Positions 1 to 41,133 of a stretch of 43,804 bases of DNA are shown one piece after another (positions within the stretch are counted from its first letter, which is position 1; each line of letters begins with the position of its first letter). The notes beneath the pieces were generated by a model. The model saw only the letters and a program-made list of their open reading frames with translations. It ran no database searches and was not told where the DNA came from. Source of the stretch: an uncultured Alphaproteobacteria bacterium (lineage in GTDB: Bacteria; Pseudomonadota; Alphaproteobacteria; CAAHEQ01; UBA3637); the NCBI GenBank assembly GCA_944392785.1, contig CALXXW010000009.1:1-43804 (forward strand). Direction: 5' to 3'. A program made the position numbers and the translations under genes.

Positions 1-1331
1 TAACGGTATCGGATATACCGCAAGGGGTGTGTGATAAGGTCATAGACATCAACTGGCAAATGCCGGCGGCTATTTTGTTGGATGGTGTTGCCGTTGATGA
101 CAATACGGTTTGTGGTGAAGGTAATAATGAGATGTTGTTTGCGTTTGCCAATGATTTAAAGAGCGGCGCTGTGGCCGGCGGAGAGGGGGAAGAAACGCCG
201 GACCCGAATGAAGAGCATTGTTGGGGCCATGGCACCTGGGACGGCACGTCATGTTTCTGTGAGCCCGGTTGGTCCGGAGATGATTGCTCGATGACACAAT
301 TCTGTAATACAAACGGCACCTGTTATGATTGTGATGCAGATGTTTCGGACCTAGTTGATGCTGCAGAGTGCTCTAAATGTGATGACAGTCGTGCACCACG
401 ATTTATGAGTACCAATGGTATGTGCGTCAGCTGCAGCTATTCATATGGCCTAAAAGCGACCGCAGCCGAATGTGCCAAGTGTGATGACAGTGGGACACCT
501 CGATTTATGGGGACCGATGGCTCTTGCTACGGCTGCAGCATTTCAGGTGGCGTTCTAGCGACCGCGGCCGGATGTGCGATGTGTGATAGCACTGATACAC
601 CACGAGTCTTGTTAGAGAATGGATATTGTGCTTTGAAAAGCTGTGGGGCGAATCAGTTCCGGGATACCGATGGCAATTGCTACAGCTGCAGCACTTCATA
701 TGGCGTTTCAGCGACCGAGGCCGAATGTGCCAAGTGTGATGCCAGTAGCACTCCCCGCGAGATGAGAAGCGGGGTTTGTATTCTGCCAGGATATTGTCCT
801 GAGGGATTTTTGAGTTCTGATGGCTATTGCCGCAGCTGCAGCGATTCATATGGCGTTTCAGCGACCGAGGCCGAATGTGCGATGTGTGATAGCAGCAGCA
901 CACCTCGCGAGATGAGAAGCGGGATTTGTATTCTACGAGGATATTGTTCTGAGGGATTTTTGAGTACCGGTGGCTATTGCGCCAGCTGCAGCGATTCATA
1001 TGGCGTTTCAGCGACAGAAGTCGAATGTGCCAAGTGTGATGCAAGTAGCACCCCCCGCAAAATGTTTGGTGACTATTGTGGGTTAATTAACTGTGGAGCG
1101 AATCAGTTCCAGTCTACCAGTGGCTATTGCCGGAGCTGCAGCGATTCATGGGGCGCTTCAGCGACCGAGGCCGAATGTGCGATGTGTGATGACAGTAGCA
1201 CACCGCGATATATGAGCGGAGACCAGTGTTATAAATGTCCGACAAGTTTAAGTTCCGGCAGCTTGAACACCCAAGGGAAGTGTGAATCGTGTCATGGGAC
1301 ATGGGACGGTAAGACACAGAAATGCTCCTAA
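1..1331 (+). CDS. Cys-rich repeat surface protein, 5' truncated by window edge
   Basis: The frame is open to the left edge with no stop, so the GTG at 27 is probably internal and the gene begins outside the window. An EGF-like module (HCWGHGTWDGTSCFC, then GWSGDDC) is followed by about seven Cys-rich units of 35-50 residues. Each carries a core like YGVSATEAECAKCD, then TPR, then a GxC-xSCS ending. A short C-terminal echo of the first module (GTWDGK) precedes the stop. Evenly spaced CxxC pairs suggest a disulfide-rich extracellular protein. The signal peptide, if any, is outside the window. No transmembrane segment or sorting signal is visible at the C-terminus. Function is unknown; adhesion or surface decoration is inference only. 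Confidence 0.8.
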   Translation, partial: TVSDIPQGVCDKVIDINWQMPAAILLDGVAVDDNTVCGEGNNEMLFAFANDLKSGAVAGGEGEETPDPNEEHCWGHGTWDGTSCFCEPGWSGDDCSMTQFCNTNGTCYDCDADVSDLVDAAECSKCDDSRAPRFMSTNGMCVSCSYSYGLKATAAECAKCDDSGTPRFMGTDGSCYGCSISGGVLATAAGCAMCDSTDTPRVLLENGYCALKSCGANQFRDTDGNCYSCSTSYGVSATEAECAKCDASSTPREMRSGVCILPGYCPEGFLSSDGYCRSCSDSYGVSATEAECAMCDSSSTPREMRSGICILRGYCSEGFLSTGGYCASCSDSYGVSATEVECAKCDASSTPRKMFGDYCGLINCGANQFQSTSGYCRSCSDSWGASATEAECAMCDDSSTPRYMSGDQCYKCPTSLSSGSLNTQGKCESCHGTWDGKTQKCS

Positions 1332-9514: not shown

Positions 9515-10384
9515 ATGACTCAAGGTCCGGTTATGGCACTTTCCTCTCTGAATGAAATTGCGGCTTCGTTTGAGCTTTTCCTATTCGATATGTTTGGAAC
9601 ACTCTGGAACGGTGAGGCGTTGTTTCCCCATACGTTGGATGTTTTAACCCAATTAAAAAAAAACGGAAAAAAAGTATTCATTGTTTCAAACTCTACGGTT
9701 TCTGAGGCTCTTTCAGAAAAGCGAGCCTGTCAAAATGGACTCATTAAAAATCTTCATTTTGATGCCTATATCACGGCAGGCGAGACGCTTTTCCACGAAA
9801 TGAGACAAGGGTTGTTTGAGCAACTGACGGGGCAACAAGAATGGCGCTTTTATACATTGCCATGGACAGTGTCAAATGCGCCTGAAAACATACGTCATCG
9901 ATATGTGGATGACATTAAACAAGCCCATATATTGTTCTTAACATGGCTGTGCCATCCCAATTCGGAGCCACCGGAAACGTTGGATCCGTTCTATGAAATC
10001 TTAGAGCAAGGATTGGAAAGAAAGCTACCTTTTGTGTGTGCTAATCCGGATTATATGGCTTTTCGAGGAAGTTTTAAATACATCACATTAGGCGCTGCCG
10101 CTCAATGGTATGCCGATCAGGGCGGGTACGTGTATTGGGTGGGTAAACCGTATCCTCAAATTTATCAGAGAGCGCTGCAAACGGCTCAAGTCGAACCGCA
10201 CAAGGCCTTGATGGTGGGAGATACTATTCGAACCGATATCTTAGGCGCCTTTCGGGCAGGAATAAAAAGTGTGCTGGTCACAACAGGTGTGACAGGGTAT
10301 TATATGGCGCAGGGGGACAGTTTGTCGGCGCGCATGGAAAAAGAGGGAGCTATCCCGGATTATTTATTAAAGGAGATTTGTTGA
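9515..10384 (+). CDS. HAD superfamily class IIA hydrolase (TIGR01459-like)
   Basis: A 289-residue haloacid-dehalogenase fold phosphatase. Motif I reads FDMFGTL (nucleophile Asp, with Phe where many HADs have the second Asp; this D-x-W/F-G form fits the TIGR01459 group). Motif II is IVSNST, motif III VGKPYPQIY and motif IV MVGDTIRTDILGA. The substrate is unknown. Two ATGs are possible: 9515, one base after the ppa stop, and 9533, which has AAGG seven bases upstream and may be the real start. It is cotranscribed with ppa and HIT. Confidence 0.82.
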   Translation: MTQGPVMALSSLNEIAASFELFLFDMFGTLWNGEALFPHTLDVLTQLKKNGKKVFIVSNSTVSEALSEKRACQNGLIKNLHFDAYITAGETLFHEMRQGLFEQLTGQQEWRFYTLPWTVSNAPENIRHRYVDDIKQAHILFLTWLCHPNSEPPETLDPFYEILEQGLERKLPFVCANPDYMAFRGSFKYITLGAAAQWYADQGGYVYWVGKPYPQIYQRALQTAQVEPHKALMVGDTIRTDILGAFRAGIKSVLVTTGVTGYYMAQGDSLSARMEKEGAIPDYLLKEIC

Positions 10385-11573: not shown

Positions 11574-11602
11574 CGGTGTCGGTTTAATAAAAATCGGCAC
11601 CG
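11574..11602. terminator. hairpin between convergent kdsB and the PyrD-like gene
   Basis: CGGTGTCGGTTT pairs with AAATCGGCACCG (12 bp with two G-U pairs, 5-nt loop). The hairpin overlaps the last codons of the minus-strand gene. On the minus strand a T5 run follows about 15 bases later; on the plus strand there is no U-tract. It may serve both 3' ends. Confidence 0.45.
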
Positions 11603-12708
11603 ATGGCTTCTTTGACAGAAGCATAACCGTTTTGTCGTAATAAATCTACCAGTTCTCGATTGATTTTTGTAATAATTTGAGGTCCTTCATATGTCAGAGC
11701 CGTGTTGACTTGAACTAATGAAGCACCGGCTTTGATTTGGTCAAAGGCATCCTGTCCCGAAAAGACGCCATCACAACCAATGATGGGAATTTTGCCTCGT
11801 GTAAATTGATAGACCTTGCCGATAAGCTCGACTAAATACTTTTGTGTCGGCGCCCCGGATAGCATACCGACATGCGGAACTTTTTTGTCTTGGATGCTGA
11901 TCCCTGTATTTTTAAATAAAGAGGTGGGACCTGCTACAATAATACCGGCAATCTCGGCCTCTGATAAAATTTGGCAAACAAGAGGAATCTCTAGCGGCGT
12001 GAGGTCTAAGGGGAGCTTCACGAGGATAGAGGGAGTCTGAATCGGCGCTGCTTTTTGAGCCGCTTCCTTAATGGCTTTCAAAAGAGGCAGCATGGTCGAA
12101 GCATCTGACACCAAAGCCGATAGCTCACTTTCCGGATGCCCGAAATCTACCGTGATGTAATCGCAATAAGGCGCTACTTTTTGAACCATCATCGGAAATT
12201 CTTCCATATAGGACATCAGACGACCCATCTTAATGTTTTCCCCTTCATTGTGGGTTGTAATCGTCAGGTTGATCCCAATGACGTTGGGTAAATAGCGCCG
12301 GTTGATAAAAATAGGCAGCATGGCTTGAAGCCCGGGATTTCGGTATCCCAGGCATTGTACTAAAACGGCGCGTTCCTTTGTCAAATAGTATGTTTCTTTG
12401 ATGGGCATTTCTCGCTCTAAGGTATAAGGGCCGAATTCTCCAAAACCAAAACCCATATAAATTAAACTATCAATAATGTTTCCTCGCTTATCAACTCCGG
12501 CCCCAATACCGATAGGCGTGGAAAAGTGTTGTCCAAACACATCAATGTTTAATTCCGGGGGCTGTTGACGGACCGGCGGAAAGGCTCCGTCTCGAAGTCC
12601 CCAATAAGCCAGAGTATGCGAGAAACGAGGACTGATATTATGACCGAAAAACCATAGAACAGAATAAAGAAAACTTTTTAATAGGGAGCGTCTGATTCGT
12701 TTGGACAT
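11584..12708 (-). CDS. PyrD-like dihydroorotate dehydrogenase family protein with altered active site
   Basis: A 374-residue protein of class 2 dihydroorotate dehydrogenase shape. It keeps PIGIGAGVDKRG (Lys74), ILVKLPLDLT (Lys231), GMLSGAP and the FMN-phosphate region IPIIGCDGVFSG plus GASLVQVNTAL. The segments that contact orotate and carry the catalytic base differ. MGFNN is LGYRN (120-124). N-x-S-S-P-N is D-F-G-H-P-E (188-193), so the catalytic Ser position is His191 and flanking Asn are Asp/Glu. ATNTT is VAGPTS. It probably binds FMN, but normal dihydroorotate oxidation is doubtful. It lies seven bases after metG, likely cotranscribed. Confidence 0.8.
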   Translation of the reverse strand: MSKRIRRSLLKSFLYSVLWFFGHNISPRFSHTLAYWGLRDGAFPPVRQQPPELNIDVFGQHFSTPIGIGAGVDKRGNIIDSLIYMGFGFGEFGPYTLEREMPIKETYYLTKERAVLVQCLGYRNPGLQAMLPIFINRRYLPNVIGINLTITTHNEGENIKMGRLMSYMEEFPMMVQKVAPYCDYITVDFGHPESELSALVSDASTMLPLLKAIKEAAQKAAPIQTPSILVKLPLDLTPLEIPLVCQILSEAEIAGIIVAGPTSLFKNTGISIQDKKVPHVGMLSGAPTQKYLVELIGKVYQFTRGKIPIIGCDGVFSGQDAFDQIKAGASLVQVNTALTYEGPQIITKINRELVDLLRQNGYASVKEAIGADFY

Positions 12709-12715
12709 ACTGCTT

Positions 12716-14410
12716 TTAAGCCTCCACTTCTTTATATTTAAGTTTTAATTCCTGAACACGTTCGGGTGAAATTTTCTGGAATAAAGGATCGGATGGATTA
12801 AACGAAGAATGCGCCGGTAATTCCGTCAGATAAGAGGACATGGGCTTGACCGTCCAAACGGGTTCCGGTTTTAGATTTAAAATCGCCAGCATCTTATCGG
12901 CGGTTTCGGGCATAATGGGGCGATTGAGCTCTGCAAACAGACGAATGAGATGAAGGGCTGTCGCCAAAATCGTGCCCGCATACGCCGGATCTGTCTTAAC
13001 CACTTTCCATGGTTCCGTTTTGGCGATATAGTTATTGCCGGATACCCAAATCTCTCGAAGCGTACTCATGGCCTTTCTCAACTCTAATCGGTCCATTAAA
13101 TGAATATAATTCTGAACAAGCGTATCAAGAGTTTGATAAAGCTCTGTCTCATGGGCTGTCGTCGGTCCCATGGCGGGAATGACCGCACCGAAATGATGCG
13201 TGGTCATTTTTAAAACACGGTTGATAAAGTTACCCAAGACATCATTTAAATCTTTATTGATGGTGGTGGCAAAATGTTCAAAAGAAAACATACTGTCGCC
13301 TGTCTCAGGAGCGTTGGCAATTAACCAATAACGCCAATAGTCGGCCGGAAACTCCGTCAAAGCATCATCGGCAAAAATACCTCGGTGGGCGGATTTCGAA
13401 AATTTACCTCCCGCAAAATTGAGGTAATTCATACCCTTTAAAAAGTCAACCTGTTTCCAATTTTCACGTGTGCCGCATAAAGTGGCCGGAAAAGAAATCG
13501 TGTGGAAAGGAATGTTGTCTTTTCCCATGAATTCCGTATATGTGACATCTTCCGGTTTTAACCACCAATCTTCCCAAGAACGTTCTGTTGGTTGTTCATC
13601 CGCCCATTGCTTGGTAATGCCTATATAACCGATGGGGGCGTCGAACCATACATAGAACACTTTATCTTCCAGACCCTCTTTCGGAACGGAAAAACCCCAT
13701 TTTAAGTCGCGGGTAATACTGCGCTCTTGCAGACCTTCTTTGAGCCATTTTTTGGCAATGGAATAGGCAATGTCTGGCCAAATACCCTTTTTTGTTTCAA
13801 TCCATTCCTCCAGCTCCTTTTCCAATTTCGGCAGCTCTAAGAATAAATGCTTCGTTTCACGAATTTCAATGTGTGTACTGCCGGATAAAGCGCTTTTGGG
13901 ATTGATTAAATCAACCGGGTCCAGAACCTTAGTGCAATTTTCGCATTGATCCCCTTTGGCACGGTCATAGCCGCAGTAGGGACAAGTGCCGATGACATAA
14001 CTGTCGGGTAAATAACGACCGTCATCAGGAGAATAGACTTGTTGTGTCGTCTTCTCTTTAATAAAACCATTGGCGTCCAAAGCATGAAAAATACGGTATG
14101 TTATCTCTTTATTTTGATCAGAGCTGCTGCGTCCGAAATAATCAAAAGAAAGATTGAAACCTTTATATATCTTGGCATGTAAGTCGTGATATGTTTGACA
14201 GTAATCTTCAACGCTAACCCCTTCTTTTGCCGCGGCAATCTCACTGGTCGTTCCGTGTTCATCCGTGCCGCAAATATACAAAACCTCAGCCCCTTTTTGG
14301 CGCAACCAACGAGCGTAAACATCGCTGGGTAAAAAACATCCCACCATATGACCTAAATGCGGTAGACCGTTAACACAGGGGAGAGCGCTTGTAATTAGTT
14401 GTTTTTTCAT
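12716..14410 (-). CDS. metG: methionyl-tRNA synthetase
   Basis: MetRS charges tRNA-Met with methionine. The 564-residue protein shows the HIGH-type motif (NGLPHLGHMVG) near the N-terminus. A zinc knuckle CPYCGY...CENC is near residues 143-160, and the KMSKS-type loop reads KFSKSAHRG. An anticodon-binding helical domain follows. The optional C-terminal tRNA-binding domain of longer MetRS forms is absent. The promoter is TTGCTC-17-TATAAT at 14485-14457. The PyrD-like gene follows on the same strand. Confidence 0.96.
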   Translation of the reverse strand: MKKQLITSALPCVNGLPHLGHMVGCFLPSDVYARWLRQKGAEVLYICGTDEHGTTSEIAAAKEGVSVEDYCQTYHDLHAKIYKGFNLSFDYFGRSSSDQNKEITYRIFHALDANGFIKEKTTQQVYSPDDGRYLPDSYVIGTCPYCGYDRAKGDQCENCTKVLDPVDLINPKSALSGSTHIEIRETKHLFLELPKLEKELEEWIETKKGIWPDIAYSIAKKWLKEGLQERSITRDLKWGFSVPKEGLEDKVFYVWFDAPIGYIGITKQWADEQPTERSWEDWWLKPEDVTYTEFMGKDNIPFHTISFPATLCGTRENWKQVDFLKGMNYLNFAGGKFSKSAHRGIFADDALTEFPADYWRYWLIANAPETGDSMFSFEHFATTINKDLNDVLGNFINRVLKMTTHHFGAVIPAMGPTTAHETELYQTLDTLVQNYIHLMDRLELRKAMSTLREIWVSGNNYIAKTEPWKVVKTDPAYAGTILATALHLIRLFAELNRPIMPETADKMLAILNLKPEPVWTVKPMSSYLTELPAHSSFNPSDPLFQKISPERVQELKLKYKEVEA

Positions 14411-18541: not shown

Positions 18542-19597
18542 TTAGTACCCATAGTAGGGCATAGTGTTTTGTGTTGTATATCCCATAGGTTGAGCCGACA
18601 CTTGTTGCGGTAAAGGTTGGGGCGTGGAAACAACGGGTTGTGATGAAGCCACCGGCGTCGTCGATTGCGGGGCTGGCACCTGTTGTACCGATACCGGCTG
18701 AGGCATCAACATGGCGGGTGTTTGACCATAGGGTAAAAATTCAACGCCCGTTCGTTGCATGGTGACTTGCGTTGTCATGGGTTGTGCCGCAGGCATCATG
18801 GCAGGTTGAAGCGGTTGACAGGGATAGCCCGGTTGAGGTCCGCATAGGTGTTGGGTCGAAACCAGTTGCGTTGTCGCACCCATGGGAACAACAGGCGCCG
18901 TCATCCCGACGGAGGCGGGAGATTGAACCACAACGGGTTGCTGTTGGATATAGGTTGTGGGCTGCTCCATAACAACCGGGTATTGTTGTACGAAAGCCGG
19001 TTGGCGTTGAACCGTAATTTCCTGTTGCATAACAACGGGCTTTTTAACGATAACGGGTTGCTGCATGACAACCGGCTGTTGTACGGTCACTGCCCGTTGT
19101 ACCGTTACGGGATATTCAACGGAAACAGGGTATTGTTTCGTAATGGGATATTCAACCTTAATCGGATTTTGAAGTTGACGGGGATCTAATTGAGCATGAC
19201 GAACCGTCTCTTGCGCTATGGATACAGGCGCCAACTGTTGTGTCGGAATAGGTTGAGCCGTTCTGCGGTTGCAACTGGAGTAAGCACAAGCCGTCTTATT
19301 GGCAACAGGTACGACAGCCGGTGCCGGTATTTCAGCCCGAGGCAGAGGCGTCTCTGAAACGGTCTCTATATCGGTTTCCAAAAAAGTATCTGTATCCAGA
19401 TATTCCGGATCATTATAGATATTTTTGGTATCTGTTTCGGCATCAACCGGCTCTTGTACAACGGTTTTTTTCTCAACACCATTGACGTAAGACCAGTCGA
19501 TATAGTCAGCACTTTCTCCATCGGCCAGGGCGTAGGCGCTAATCGATAAACCAATGGATAAACCGGATAATAGAGCAACAACTAACTTTGTATTCAT
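18542..19597 (-). CDS. secreted Pro/Gln/Val-repeat protein
   Basis: A 351-residue protein with a signal peptide (MNTKLVVALLSGLSIGLS, cleavage likely near AYA-LADG). Residues about 150-230 hold an irregular repeat of a Y/Q-P-V-x-V-Q/E type (YPVSVEYPVTVQ, QQPVVMQQPV, KKPVVMQQ). A Pro/Gln/Thr-rich tail ends YYGY. Two Cys pairs occur, including CAYSSC. The ATG follows AAGGGAG. The repeat looks superficially like alveolin-type valine/proline repeats, but composition bias alone can produce that. It is probably periplasmic or surface-exposed; function unknown. Confidence 0.78.
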   Translation of the reverse strand: MNTKLVVALLSGLSIGLSISAYALADGESADYIDWSYVNGVEKKTVVQEPVDAETDTKNIYNDPEYLDTDTFLETDIETVSETPLPRAEIPAPAVVPVANKTACAYSSCNRRTAQPIPTQQLAPVSIAQETVRHAQLDPRQLQNPIKVEYPITKQYPVSVEYPVTVQRAVTVQQPVVMQQPVIVKKPVVMQQEITVQRQPAFVQQYPVVMEQPTTYIQQQPVVVQSPASVGMTAPVVPMGATTQLVSTQHLCGPQPGYPCQPLQPAMMPAAQPMTTQVTMQRTGVEFLPYGQTPAMLMPQPVSVQQVPAPQSTTPVASSQPVVSTPQPLPQQVSAQPMGYTTQNTMPYYGY

Positions 19598-20001: not shown

Positions 20002-20967
20002 TTAATATGTTTTGGCATAAGTGTTTGTTGTTTGTGCCGACTCTTTTAAACGGGTTAAGTCCGAGCTTTCCCGAGCAATGCCCAAAAGCTCTCGGGTCTT
20101 GCGCTCCTCCAACGTTTCGCCCGTTGTCAGATAGCAAACGCTTTGAATAACCAGATGACAGAAAAAAGCCAGTATCGAAAACAGCAAGGAATTACTCAGG
20201 TACAAATAAAACAAGACAACATAGATGACGCCACCCGAAATGTCGCCGGCACTTTTCGGTAAAAAAGAAGAAAAAGCGACAGCAAACGGAATGAGTAGTA
20301 ATGATAGTAAAGATGCACCTCGTGTCTTTTGACCCAGAAAACCTATAATCATCGGGAAAAGAAGGATGAAAATCAGGCTACTTTGGTTCCACGCCTTTAT
20401 CAGAAAAATGCTCCCATATGCTAAAACACCGACAATAACCAGGAACAATAACGTTTGTCCGGCGATGGCAATAATCAGAGAAGGACTGGAAAAAGCTTTG
20501 GTCAATTTGTCCAAAAAATCACTCATATTAAAGCGCTCAGTATACGCTATCAAAAAAGCGATATAAGTATAAACAAAAAAACTACTAACGGCTAAAATGG
20601 CAAGCGTTTGCGGTAAAGGAGGAAGTAAAAAATAGAATAGAAAAAAAATGACAGAATAAACCAGAGAAAAGCATAGGCTGAATAAAATCATTAACAATGT
20701 CTTGTGAACAAAAAAAGTCCCAGAGGTGCCACGGTAGTTAAAAATATCTTTTTTCGCGGTAATCAGAAAATAAGTGGTAGAAATCAGAAAAATCAGGATA
20801 GGACACAAAGCAACGGTTAATTCCTGTCCCGCCGATAAAGAAAGGGTTTGAGATGTTATTAAAACAAACAGAGGAACAATCAACCCCAATACGGTTGCAA
20901 GACCCCCCAAAATAAAGGATGGTAGGCCAGATGCAAATTGAAAAGCAGCCTCTGATGACAATTTCAT
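20002..20967 (-). CDS. polytopic inner-membrane protein of unknown function
   Basis: A 321-residue protein with about eight hydrophobic segments spread over residues 15-280 (for example LPSFILGGLATVLGLIVPLF and FFLFYFLLPPLPQTLAILAV). A soluble charged C-terminal tail follows (TGETLEERKTRELLGIARE). The central phenylalanine- and leucine-rich helices resemble integral membrane carriers, but I recognise no family motif. The ATG at 20967 (AAAGGGGA upstream) is preferred over 21006. It lies between trcR and gapR on the same strand, but gapR has its own promoter. Confidence 0.72.
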   Translation of the reverse strand: MKLSSEAAFQFASGLPSFILGGLATVLGLIVPLFVLITSQTLSLSAGQELTVALCPILIFLISTTYFLITAKKDIFNYRGTSGTFFVHKTLLMILFSLCFSLVYSVIFFLFYFLLPPLPQTLAILAVSSFFVYTYIAFLIAYTERFNMSDFLDKLTKAFSSPSLIIAIAGQTLLFLVIVGVLAYGSIFLIKAWNQSSLIFILLFPMIIGFLGQKTRGASLLSLLLIPFAVAFSSFLPKSAGDISGGVIYVVLFYLYLSNSLLFSILAFFCHLVIQSVCYLTTGETLEERKTRELLGIARESSDLTRLKESAQTTNTYAKTY

Positions 20968-21061
20968 GTGTTTTCCCCTTTCTTTTTCAACAAGAATGGC
21001 CTTCACGCGTCTGAATCAACAAGAATAACACTCAAGTGCCCTAAGGGCTTCTCGGAAAAAA

Positions 21062-30644: not shown

Positions 30645-31982
30645 TTAAACCAGACGCCGCTCAAAATAGCTGTCTGTTGGCTTTTGCGGCAGTAAGTGTC
30701 GACCGCAAAAGCGAGGACCTTCGGCACACTTGTGGGTTTGATAGCAGGGCGGTGCTAACATTTCCGCTAAGGGTAGACCGGCTTTTTCAACTTGAGCCCT
30801 TAACTGGCGAGAAATCTCGTAAATTTCTTCTTGTGCGCAAAGACACAGGCGTTTCCCTTGTTCATGTTTTAAAGCATTGATATCGGCTCGTTTAGTATAT
30901 TGAACCATAACACCATAGGGAGCTATCGTCGTCATCAAAGCCGGAGAAAGACGTTGAGCCAATTGTGTATAGGTTGTCATATAGGCTTGAGCTGTCTCAG
31001 CAAGCCCCGCCTTTTTCAGTAAAGGAGGCAGATAAAAGGCACCGGTCATCATCGGCGCCGAGCGCTTAATCGTGCGGTGACGTTGATCTTGTCCCATGGT
31101 GGCACAAGAAATTTCCACTTGTGTTTGAAGGTAGGCAATGTTATCGGCCATTGCAAACGGCGAAAAAGGTAAAATATCAACGGAGTCTTTGGCCTCGGGC
31201 GCGGTGCTTTCAGCCGTCTCATAGGATAGCAAACGACAGGTGGGTTGATCTTGGATGCGAGGTGCGTCAAACCGCATGGTCGGTGCCCAGTCTCGATTTT
31301 GACGTGCCGAGGCTTCAAACATGTAGGCAAGCTCCGGATGGTGCTCTAACACGGCGTCTCGCATCATATCGGTCACTTGGCGTAATTCCGGAGACCATGC
31401 GGCGCGCCACAAGGCACACAGAGCAGAGGTATCTATCGTATAATCCAGCGCGGTCGGCATGACTTGCGACAGGAACATACGTAGTTGCTCTTGCGCAAAT
31501 TTCGGGGCGTTTTGCATGATGTATTTATCCGAAGCCAGAGGACGTTCTTGTCGAATAGCCTCCTGCGCAAGCTGCGTCAGTGATAGGATATGTTTATGAT
31601 ATAGGTCTATACCTTGCGCAATAAAGGTTATGGCCGCTGTTATATCCTCTTGTGGATACAAGGCGGCTAAATGGGAGCGAATACCGGCTAAGTCCGGAGA
31701 GTGATACATCTTTGAAAAACGCCCCGAGCGTTGATCCGTATTATAAAAAGGAGCGTTTAAATGTAGACCAAACACAACCGAGGAAATGGATAATCCCTCT
31801 AAATTAAATGTGAAATAATTATGCTCCAGTGTGGTATGATGACCGGTGCGGAAAAGACGATGTTCAACATCTATGGTTTCTCCCATGCGCGGCACCTCTG
31901 CGGTATAGCATGTCTTGGCGGCATGTGAAGACAAAAAAATAGGATCAATATTCGTTTCGGCAATTAAATGAGCTGATATCAT
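30645..31982 (-). CDS. ThyX-family protein, tandem two-domain form
   Basis: A 445-residue protein of the flavin-dependent thymidylate synthase family, about twice the usual 220-250. The first half has GHHTTLEHNYFTF (substrate region, near 48-58) and a modified signature FGLHLNAPFYN...RSGRFS instead of RHRxxSxNxxSxRY. The second half has QDQRHRTIKRSAP (301-308), the other part of the signature, and ends in a Cys-containing segment (CAEGPRFCGRH). Each half alone is incomplete, so the active site may be shared. It may supply dTMP if the genome lacks ThyA. AAGGAGC precedes the ATG. Confidence 0.78.
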   Translation of the reverse strand: MISAHLIAETNIDPIFLSSHAAKTCYTAEVPRMGETIDVEHRLFRTGHHTTLEHNYFTFNLEGLSISSVVFGLHLNAPFYNTDQRSGRFSKMYHSPDLAGIRSHLAALYPQEDITAAITFIAQGIDLYHKHILSLTQLAQEAIRQERPLASDKYIMQNAPKFAQEQLRMFLSQVMPTALDYTIDTSALCALWRAAWSPELRQVTDMMRDAVLEHHPELAYMFEASARQNRDWAPTMRFDAPRIQDQPTCRLLSYETAESTAPEAKDSVDILPFSPFAMADNIAYLQTQVEISCATMGQDQRHRTIKRSAPMMTGAFYLPPLLKKAGLAETAQAYMTTYTQLAQRLSPALMTTIAPYGVMVQYTKRADINALKHEQGKRLCLCAQEEIYEISRQLRAQVEKAGLPLAEMLAPPCYQTHKCAEGPRFCGRHLLPQKPTDSYFERRLV

Positions 31983-35765: not shown

Positions 35766-37322
35766 TTACTTTCCTTTCAATAAGGCATCAATCAGCTCTT
35801 CAACCGTGGGGATATGTCCGTTTTTATACATGGGATCTGTCCCGAAACGGTAGGCCAGATGGCCGGCAAACATCAGATTATCATCGACACTTTCACCATG
35901 TGCAATGGCCGTCAGCGTTTTGGTAATGCAAAATGAACGTGCATCAGGTAAGCGGTCCAAATGCCCGTTTGCTTGTGACCAGCCCGAAAAGGCACACGCC
36001 GACAAACAGCCGACACATTCTGCACGGTCGTTTTTAATGCGCGCATTCTCTTCTTTGGACAAGAAAATCAAAGACTCATCAGGCGTTCGAACGGCAACAG
36101 GCCTACCGTTTTGTTGATAGGCATGGGCTCGCTTGAGGTCATGTTCCGTCAAATAGACGGTGTGGGCCTCGGATACCTTAAAGGGTTTGACAAAAATACT
36201 CTCCGGTTTAGTTTTGTAGGGCATTTCCGTGTCCTTTCGATCCATCAACATTTGTAAAAAACGATTGCGGATAGCCGAAGAATAAAAACCGGTCGGAGAA
36301 AATTGTTGCAGAACAACATCCCCTTTTTTTAGACCCAACAAACATTTTTGCCAGTCCTTTGCTACCGGACTTTCTTGAGTCAATAACGGACGAGTGCCCA
36401 ATTGAAAGGCTAAGGGACCAATATCGGGATTATCAATGTAATCATCAAACTCAGATAAGTTCCAAACACCACCAGCCATAATAATCGGTGTCGTGTTTAA
36501 CTTGTATTCGTTCATTTGTCGACGTAAAGCAACCAGTCGCTCATAGGGACGTTCCGGTTTTTCCGGATCTTCGGAGTTGGACAAACCGTTATGTCCGCCG
36601 GCTAACCATGGGTCCTCATAGACGACGCCGCCTAAAAATTCAGGACAGTTTTTATAGCTTCTGAGCCATAGCGCTCGAAAAGCCCGAGCCGATGAAACAA
36701 TCGGGTAATAATAAATGCCGTATCGAGACGCAATTTCGGCCAATTTATAAGGCATGCCGGCACCACACGTCAGACCGTGGACTAAATTTTTGACTTCACC
36801 TAAAACACTATCTACAACCGGTATAGAGTTATCCAGACGTTTGTTGTATTGAAAGCGGAGCGCCCCCAGTGTTTGTTGAACGCGCTCCCCGACGGCCGTT
36901 AATTTATCTTGATATTTTTCAGGGGCCTTTTCCTTCAGAGAAACAACCAAATTTTCACAGGAATTCATAACGCCTTCCAAAATGGGTAAGCTTCCCCCCA
37001 TTTCCCAGAGAACATTCATGTGAATGCGGCCATTTCCTTGGGATATTTCGTGGGCAATTTTGGCTTGAGAAATACCCCCTTTAATTGACATTTCAATAAG
37101 CTCATCATGACGCTCTTTGCGTGAGCGGCGTGTGTAGACCTTTGGCACAATCTGACCCTTGTCATCCACGACATCGGCAAAGACGCCGGATATCGTTCCT
37201 ACCGCGCCGGCTTTGGCCCAGGCACCGGAGGAGTATCCATCTGAAACGGCAATCCCCTTGCCGCCCTCAATCAAAGGAATAACCTCTTTTCCGGAAATAA
37301 TAATAGGATTTAGTTTTTTCAT
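35766..37322 (-). CDS. nitronate monooxygenase-like FMN-dependent oxidoreductase
   Basis: A 518-residue TIM-barrel flavoprotein resembling the 2-nitropropane dioxygenase/nitronate monooxygenase family. IPLIEGGKGIAVSDGYSSG marks the start, TTPIIMAGGVWNLSEFDDY and GPLAFQLGTRPLL the phosphate-binding part. A C-terminal region carries CVGCLSACAF (C-x2-C-x3-C) and is longer than in usual members. The substrate is uncertain. The ATG at 37322 with AAAGGG upstream is chosen over 37448, whose extension would cover the neighbouring divergent promoter. Confidence 0.82.
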   Translation of the reverse strand: MKKLNPIIISGKEVIPLIEGGKGIAVSDGYSSGAWAKAGAVGTISGVFADVVDDKGQIVPKVYTRRSRKERHDELIEMSIKGGISQAKIAHEISQGNGRIHMNVLWEMGGSLPILEGVMNSCENLVVSLKEKAPEKYQDKLTAVGERVQQTLGALRFQYNKRLDNSIPVVDSVLGEVKNLVHGLTCGAGMPYKLAEIASRYGIYYYPIVSSARAFRALWLRSYKNCPEFLGGVVYEDPWLAGGHNGLSNSEDPEKPERPYERLVALRRQMNEYKLNTTPIIMAGGVWNLSEFDDYIDNPDIGPLAFQLGTRPLLTQESPVAKDWQKCLLGLKKGDVVLQQFSPTGFYSSAIRNRFLQMLMDRKDTEMPYKTKPESIFVKPFKVSEAHTVYLTEHDLKRAHAYQQNGRPVAVRTPDESLIFLSKEENARIKNDRAECVGCLSACAFSGWSQANGHLDRLPDARSFCITKTLTAIAHGESVDDNLMFAGHLAYRFGTDPMYKNGHIPTVEELIDALLKGK

Positions 37323-37408
37323 ATGGAGCCCTTTCTTGATAAAATTTTTTACCAGAATACACTCTTTTTTTGGAAAAAGCGAGTCTTTTTTAAAAAGAGG
37401 CTTGTTTT

Positions 37409-37436
37409 TTGTTCGGATTTTCGAGTATGATATAAA
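37409..37436 (+). promoter_or_regulatory. promoter of the HATPase-REC-PP2C gene
   Basis: TTGTTC (37409-37414), 16 bp, TATAAA (37431-37436). Predicted start near 37443, with AAAAGGA in a leader of about 20 nt. Confidence 0.5.
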
Positions 37437-37465
37437 AAGCACATACAAAAAGGATTTGACTTAAA

Positions 37466-40158: not shown

Positions 40159-40242
40159 CGGGATAGTCGTTTTGGTGTTGCATTTCGACCTTTTTTATGG
40201 TTTAGTACTACTATACCGTCATTAGCTGTGAAAGGAATGTGT

Positions 40243-41133
40243 ATGAAGATTTCTCGTTTTTTGCTGGTCTCTGCTTTTATGGTTATGGGGTTCGGGGCTC
40301 AGGTGGCCGCTCAAGGATTTTATAACCCTTTATTGATTTGTCGGGCGCATCAGTGTGCCGCTTCAACGTACGCTTTTTCAAAAAGCTTTCTGTTCAATGC
40401 TCTTGAAAAAATGATGACAGATAATATCGGACATAGTATTCGCGTGTGTGATGCGGATCCTTATACACATGCGTGCTTGCGATATGGTGTGCGCATCCCG
40501 GCTCAGGCCTCATTCGCTCAGGCTAATATCACTATTCCCGAAATTTATTTGTCCGATGTTAAGCTATCGCCCAAAGAGGCGACTTTGAATATGGTATGGG
40601 ACTATCGTGTAAAGGTGAATACAACTTATCCCCGCTGTAGTGCAGCCTCAACTCAATTAAGTGTCCCCTTTGTGAATAAAGTGCAACTTCGCTCGGCTGA
40701 ATTTGGGTGTGGCATGACGGAAACAGGACGATCGCTTTTGAACGCTACCTACGATGTGGATTATATCGATTTCGACTATGGACTGATTGGTGCTTATTAT
40801 ACAATCGGAACCGCAGGAACGGTTCGCGGAGGGCGCTCGGGGTATGTATTGATGGCGTTTGGAGCTAAAACAACCGTCGACATACCGGATGAAGCGTTTG
40901 AAGTGCCAGCTCCTCGTGTCGCTAACAACTGGACCGCTCCATTGGGGGAACCTCTATACATTCAACCGATTGCGCAAGAAGTCGTCGAAACAGCGCCTCA
41001 ATCAACACCAGCCCCCGTAATGGTGGATGATTATATTGGGGGTGTACCAATGGAAACACAGGAGATGTCCGATACATCCGGTCAATCTTCTCGGAGCTTT
41101 TTTGAACGGGTTGAGGACTTCCTCTATTTCTAA
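40243..41133 (+). CDS. secreted protein of unknown function
   Basis: A 296-residue protein with a clear signal peptide (MKISRFLLVSAFMVMGFGAQ, cleavage near VAA-QGF). The mature part begins with a Cys pair (ICRAHQCAAS), has further Cys (VCDADPYTHACL, PRCSAA, FGCGM), a beta-rich middle and a Pro/Thr/Glu tail. No transmembrane segment is seen after the signal. I recognise no family. The ATG at 40243 with AAAGGA six bases upstream is preferred over the GTG at 40228 and the ATG at 40237. Confidence 0.75.
   Translation: MKISRFLLVSAFMVMGFGAQVAAQGFYNPLLICRAHQCAASTYAFSKSFLFNALEKMMTDNIGHSIRVCDADPYTHACLRYGVRIPAQASFAQANITIPEIYLSDVKLSPKEATLNMVWDYRVKVNTTYPRCSAASTQLSVPFVNKVQLRSAEFGCGMTETGRSLLNATYDVDYIDFDYGLIGAYYTIGTAGTVRGGRSGYVLMAFGAKTTVDIPDEAFEVPAPRVANNWTAPLGEPLYIQPIAQEVVETAPQSTPAPVMVDDYIGGVPMETQEMSDTSGQSSRSFFERVEDFLYF

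Follow-up and report, generated by a model that had tools for sequence, protein, structure and literature searches.

The accessible text of PMC8520639 gives serine as the base of class 2 DHODH and describes class 2 enzymes of anaerobic fungi (Ura9) in which cysteine is the base and which nevertheless sustain pyrimidine synthesis. One anaerobic-fungal class 2 enzyme uses free flavins as acceptor, according to the same portion of that paper. Among the relatives of class 1A DHODH there are dihydrouracil oxidases, as set out in the available part of PMC10395836. Here, we describe a PyrD-derived protein, for which we use the name PyrD-L, encoded on a 43,804-nucleotide stretch of DNA (the window) from an uncultured alphaproteobacterium (assembly GCA_944392785.1, contig CALXXW010000009.1). 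In the literature searched, with subscription journals mostly outside our reach, neither a His-type PyrD nor PyrD-L itself turned up. Among named genomes, the nearest belong to uncultured Alphaproteobacteria, and many of these come from rumen and gut samples. Throughout, "family" means the bacterial family of the window, represented by 43 genomes, and residue counts were made over 41 homologues.

Results

PyrD-L matches the Pfam family PF01180 (DHO_dh) with 148.2 bits against a gathering score of 27 (3.7e-43). All NCBIfam class 2 PyrD models match it as well, each under its curated cut-off, as for TIGR01036 (190.5 against 200) and NF003645 (208.9 against 366). The class 1 model TIGR01037 stayed at 58.6 against a cut-off of 270, and the base position holds His191 and not Cys. 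No match to PF01207 (Dus) was obtained at E ≤ 1, and the best sequence match in the PDB was human DHODH (3e-47). An AlphaFold2 model built from 23 family members reached a pLDDT of 89.5 and a pTM of 0.89, and had human DHODH as its closest structure, with which it superposed over 344 residues (Z 46.3, rmsd 2.2; Foldseek was also run). Its N-terminal helices span residues 3–25 and 27–39, with pLDDT values of 63–76. The predicted fold is intact in both subclades of the family, including one of 10 genomes. Judged from sequence and model, PyrD-L is a class 2 PyrD homologue. The coordinates of the gene, its relevant codons and its surroundings are collected in Table 1.

Table 1. Features of the window, with the E. 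coli PyrD residue aligned to each codon and its state in the family
Feature	Coordinates	Strand	E. coli PyrD residue	Remarks
PyrD-L	11584..12708	minus		374 aa, ATG start; two N-terminal helices and FMN-type TIM barrel
metG, methionyl-tRNA synthetase	12716..14410	minus		TIGR00398, 520 bits; directly upstream of PyrD-L, 7-base gap
TIGR01459 HAD hydrolase	9515..10384	plus		TIGR01459, 136 bits, over cut-off; marks native pyrD neighbourhood
Lys74 codon	12487..12489	minus	Lys66	Retained; just 20/41 family members have Lys
Tyr108 codon	12385..12387	minus	Arg102 (class 2 quinone-site Arg)	Phe/Tyr/Leu across family; every canonical PyrD checked has Arg
Gln118 codon	12355..12357	minus	Asn111 (orotate contact)	Asn in 0/41 of family
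Asp188 codon	12145..12147	minus	Asn172 (orotate/FMN contact)	Family: Asn 31/41, Asp 10
His191 codon	12136..12138	minus	Ser175 (catalytic base)	His in 38/41 of family; Ser in 39/39 canonical PyrDs
Glu193 codon	12130..12132	minus	Asn177 (orotate contact)	Family conservation rank 307/370, not conserved
Lys231 codon	12016..12018	minus	Lys217 (flavin contact)	Lys in 38/41 of family
Gly260 codon	11929..11931	minus	Asn246 (orotate contact)	Gly in 40/41 of family; rank 20/370
ThyX-like protein	30645..31982	minus		445 aa, about twice the usual length; 40 bits against ThyX cut-off of 87.9
Divergent flavin-type barrel protein	35766..37448	minus		560 aa; weak nitronate monooxygenase/FabK-like Pfam match, 35.7 bits
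Long ORF	18542..19597	minus		No Pfam match at E 0.001
Long ORF	20002..21006	minus		No Pfam match at E 0.001
Long ORF	27..1331	plus		No Pfam match at E 0.001
Long ORF	40228..41133	plus		No Pfam match at E 0.001

E. coli PyrD served as the reference for residue equivalences; the orotate, flavin and quinone-site roles of its residues are those of the class 2 structures. An earlier note on this DNA, made from the letters alone, had claimed that both usual lysines are kept, that the catalytic serine position is a histidine, that the flanking substrate asparagines have become Asp188 and Glu193, that NTT reads GPT and that every orotate contact that could be aligned by eye departs from the class 2 pattern. 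The alignment agrees on every count: K66 and K217 correspond to Lys74 and Lys231, S175 to H191, N172 and N177 to the two acidic residues, and N246 and T247 to G260 and P261, so that Lys74 is the only orotate contact retained. The equation of MGFNN with LGYRN held only in part, since the loop is indeed changed but the substrate asparagine is N111 of the E. coli sequence NRMGFNN, which has become Gln118; the asparagine of LGYRN, Asn124, corresponds to E. coli N117. The remaining replacements are F115 to Y122, T178 to S194 and, at the FMN site, Tyr318 to Asn335 (E. coli residues first). When the structural alignment that the note had suggested was carried out, the model superposed on class 2 DHODH over its whole length, and neither a Ser/Cys base nor the substrate Asn was found at the aligned active-site places.

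A PyrD-L homologue is kept in 41 of the 43 family genomes. For comparison we assembled 39 canonical PyrDs, made up of 17 sequences (after removal of L089, a mis-grouped family member) and the 22 next-best class matches, and every contact is retained in all canonical PyrDs checked. The invariant serine of this set, set against the histidine of nearly all family members, places the changed site far beyond chance. Three members deviate from histidine, namely G015 with Asn, G025 with Thr and G010 with Ile; G015 is 94% identical to the His-bearing G006. At the position of the quinone-site Arg102, none of the 41 family members has arginine.

Ranked among the 370 family columns, His191 (27), Gly260 (20), Lys231 (35) and Gly285 (14) are strongly conserved, and there is no variation at the phosphate-binding glycines 285 and 328. 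The Asn172 column ranks 39th, whereas the other former orotate contacts mostly rank between 175 and 307. Two positions have thus been re-fixed and the flavin lysine has been kept while the rest drifted, which argues that the site is not merely degraded. The 10-genome subclade lacks Lys66 and Gly63 and mostly also Gly297, so that flavin binding is doubtful there. In genus g4, the homologues L009, L013, L017 and L019 have about 30–100 additional C-terminal residues, which in L009 form a long Pro/Gln/Val-rich tail.

The genome of the window is a metagenome assembly of 1.12 Mb and 98% completeness, in which PyrD-L is the only PF01180 gene; there is accordingly no second pyrD, the situation for which the earlier note had offered pyrimidine import as one option. 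Profile searches, in which the type II dihydroorotase model TIGR00856 was not separately included, detected no pyrB, pyrC, pyrE, pyrF or carB in this genome. A weak match to the pyrE model spans roughly 40 positions, in keeping with a phosphoribosyltransferase of another kind. Across the family, pyrB exceeded its cut-off in 2 of 33 genomes and pyrE in 1 of 33, while pyrF (0/25), pyrC (0/25) and carB (0/3 tested) did so in none. Since these absences were read from profile searches of metagenome assemblies, they are credible mainly because they recur across relatives. Together with the lack of a second PF01180 gene, they indicate that the import option was the right one and that these bacteria are pyrimidine auxotrophs. 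G001 and G019 carry a full pyrB over the cut-off, yet pyrC, pyrF and a true pyrE were not found there. G010, the member with Ile at the base position, has a pyrE-model match over the cut-off in a 345-aa frame. The salvage gene upp was not found in the window's genome either, and exceeded its cut-off in 2 of 23 family genomes.

UbiA-family prenyltransferases are needed for both ubiquinone and menaquinone. No UbiA-family enzyme of quinone synthesis was found in the window's genome, and the UbiA family exceeded its cut-off in only 1 of 36 family genomes. We considered a strict tie between the altered site and the loss of quinones, but the relation is not clean, as the outlying relative G092 has UbiA-family genes.

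Nei-Gojobori estimates of dN/dS for PyrD-L lay between 0.03 and 0.14 in close pairs with measurable dS, two further pairs being saturated; in the 10-genome subclade the range was 0.065–0.125. Because purifying selection is this strong, PyrD-L is not a dead gene, although a non-catalytic protein would still be compatible with these values. The low dN/dS and the presence of PyrD-L in the same place in 41 of 43 family genomes also led us to reject an artefact, contamination or a pseudogene.

In the phylogenetic tree the PyrD-L proteins of the family are monophyletic (support 100/100), and the proteins of G044, G092 and G111 join their clade, apart from all canonical PyrDs. These three also stood out in a class-wide profile search, with about 320 bits, whereas everything else outside the family scored 259 or less. 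A TIGR01459-type HAD homologue lies directly after pyrD in the Acetobacter, G104 and G072 loci, and such a hydrolase is also found beside the PyrD-L genes of G044, G092 and G111. The gene order, with a HAD gene in the window that was handed down from ordinary alphaproteobacterial pyrD loci, therefore shows that PyrD-L is the native pyrD, modified at its original site. Horizontal gain of a foreign paralogue was rejected, as both the tree and this inherited neighbour oppose it. As a separate observation, G104 encodes, alongside the canonical pyrD (L048) of the same genome, a second and very divergent PyrD paralogue (L049) that has Cys as its base residue.

In the family, PyrD-L has moved to a place immediately after metG, as seen in 37 of the 43 loci inspected, a count that includes some duplicates. 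A GGAGG motif lies within the tail of metG. The two genes, 7 bases apart, likely share one transcript, and their adjacency may reflect only a shared promoter. The idea, raised by the metG neighbour, that PyrD-L stands in for a missing Dus enzyme was dismissed, as the genome contains two Dus genes. The downstream neighbours, which by eye include a peptide-type ABC transporter, a sigma factor and ATP synthase genes, as well as kdsB by match to the window, vary by genus, and neither they nor any other neighbouring gene hints at a substrate. Elsewhere in the window, the ThyX-like protein apparently consists of two ThyX-like halves, with DQRSGRFS in the first and QRHRTIKRS in the second.

Discussion

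We favour, with a probability of roughly 60%, the reading in which the lineage's own class 2 PyrD was repurposed as PyrD-L after loss of its pathway, and in which PyrD-L is no longer a DHODH but probably a flavin enzyme acting on another substrate. With no quinone, no substrate, no enzyme to use the product and no substrate contacts, PyrD-L cannot do its old job; as it is retained under selection in some 40 species, it must do something. The further step, that PyrD-L represents a new flavoenzyme family derived from class 2 PyrD, with a histidine acid/base, in quinone-less, pyrimidine-auxotrophic gut Alphaproteobacteria, is one that we take tentatively, at somewhat short of even odds.

In the proposed scenario the family first lost de novo pyrimidine synthesis, and nearly throughout also quinone synthesis, and pyrD was repurposed afterwards. 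PyrD-L would still bind FMN and would use the flavin to oxidise or reduce some other small molecule; His191 would serve as acid/base on the face occupied by Ser175 in PyrD. The replacement of Asn246 by Gly260 would enlarge the pocket, and electrons might pass to a non-quinone acceptor, either a soluble one or free flavin. The N-terminal helices probably still hold the protein at the membrane. A flavin enzyme with His191 as its putative acid/base is the most economical proposal that we can offer. Two observations speak against a repurposed enzyme: the histidine is not absolute, being replaced in three members, and the 10-genome subclade has suffered losses at its flavin site.

The same observations nourish the main rival, in which PyrD-L is a non-catalytic descendant, a membrane-associated binding or scaffold barrel with or without flavin. 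Most orotate contacts drift freely, residue 191 can be Asn, Thr or Ile, and the 10-genome subclade, after losing Lys66 and most flavin glycines, has kept its fold under the same selection. A pseudoenzyme of this kind does not readily account for the marked conservation of His191, Gly260 and Lys231 within a pocket that otherwise drifts, nor for the invariant phosphate-binding glycines, and we regard it as rather unlikely, though it deserves serious attention. The earlier note had proposed either another substrate or inactivity; the lost pathway and the lost contacts support this pair of options, of which we hold the first to be the more probable.

Much less credit goes to the readings that leave PyrD-L in pyrimidine chemistry. 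It might act on another pyrimidine, such as dihydrouracil, for salvage in an auxotroph, and the available part of PMC10395836 provides a precedent for such a substrate shift inside the superfamily; the family, moreover, must import pyrimidines. However, the known dihydrouracil oxidases described there keep the SCPN motif, whereas the pyrimidine-binding asparagine set is gone in PyrD-L, and, with upp missing here and in most of the family genomes searched, free uracil could hardly be exploited that way. We therefore consider this reading improbable. We give even less weight to the notion that PyrD-L is still a DHODH, one with an altered base that has adjusted to living without quinones. Its full-length class 2 similarity would fit, as would the replacement of Ser by Cys together with loss of charge at the quinone site in anaerobic fungi (PMC8520639, accessible text). 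But the genome has none of the pathway genes needed to make or use the metabolites, and Asn111, Asn177 and Asn246 are lost, a loss that the accessible text does not mention for the fungal enzymes.

Automatic annotation likely calls PyrD-L-type proteins quinone-dependent DHODH and thereby credits gut bacteria with a pyrimidine step that they cannot use. PyrD-L is a clear example from nature of a core enzyme of metabolism that has survived its own pathway. The other pathway steps are missing, as is the electron acceptor of the enzyme, and yet some 40 species keep the protein under strong selection, with a newly conserved residue in the place of the catalytic base.

With class 2 PyrD (PF01180, TIGR01036), PyrD-L shares the end-to-end fold, the N-terminal helices, the two active-site lysines and the phosphate-binding glycines, as well as descent and the ancestral gene neighbourhood. 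It differs in having His for Ser, in the replacement of Asn111, Asn172, Asn177, Asn246, Phe115 and Thr247, in the loss of the quinone-site arginine, in scores under the curated cut-offs and in a genome without the pyrimidine pathway or a UbiA-family enzyme. The tRNA dihydrouridine synthases (PF01207) are FMN-dependent TIM barrels of the same broad fold, but form a separate family with two genuine members in the window's genome. The class 2 DHODH of anaerobic fungi (PMC8520639, accessible text) resembles PyrD-L in its setting without respiration, its changed base position and its lost quinone-site charge, whereas it has Cys and supports pyrimidine synthesis, while the window's genome lacks the pathway and PyrD-L the substrate contacts. 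Unlike PyrD-L, neither these fungal enzymes nor the dihydrouracil oxidases have lost the pathway, and loss of the asparagine set is not reported for them in the accessible parts of PMC8520639 and PMC10395836. Closest are the proteins of G044, G092 and G111, from three other alphaproteobacterial families, in which Asn246 is already Gly and both Asn111 and the quinone-site Arg are lost. Their base position is Asn, Ser and Cys, respectively, their gene lies beside the HAD hydrolase and not metG, and G092 has UbiA-family genes and G111 carB, unlike the genome of the window; these families thus offer intermediate states from which the change can be retraced.
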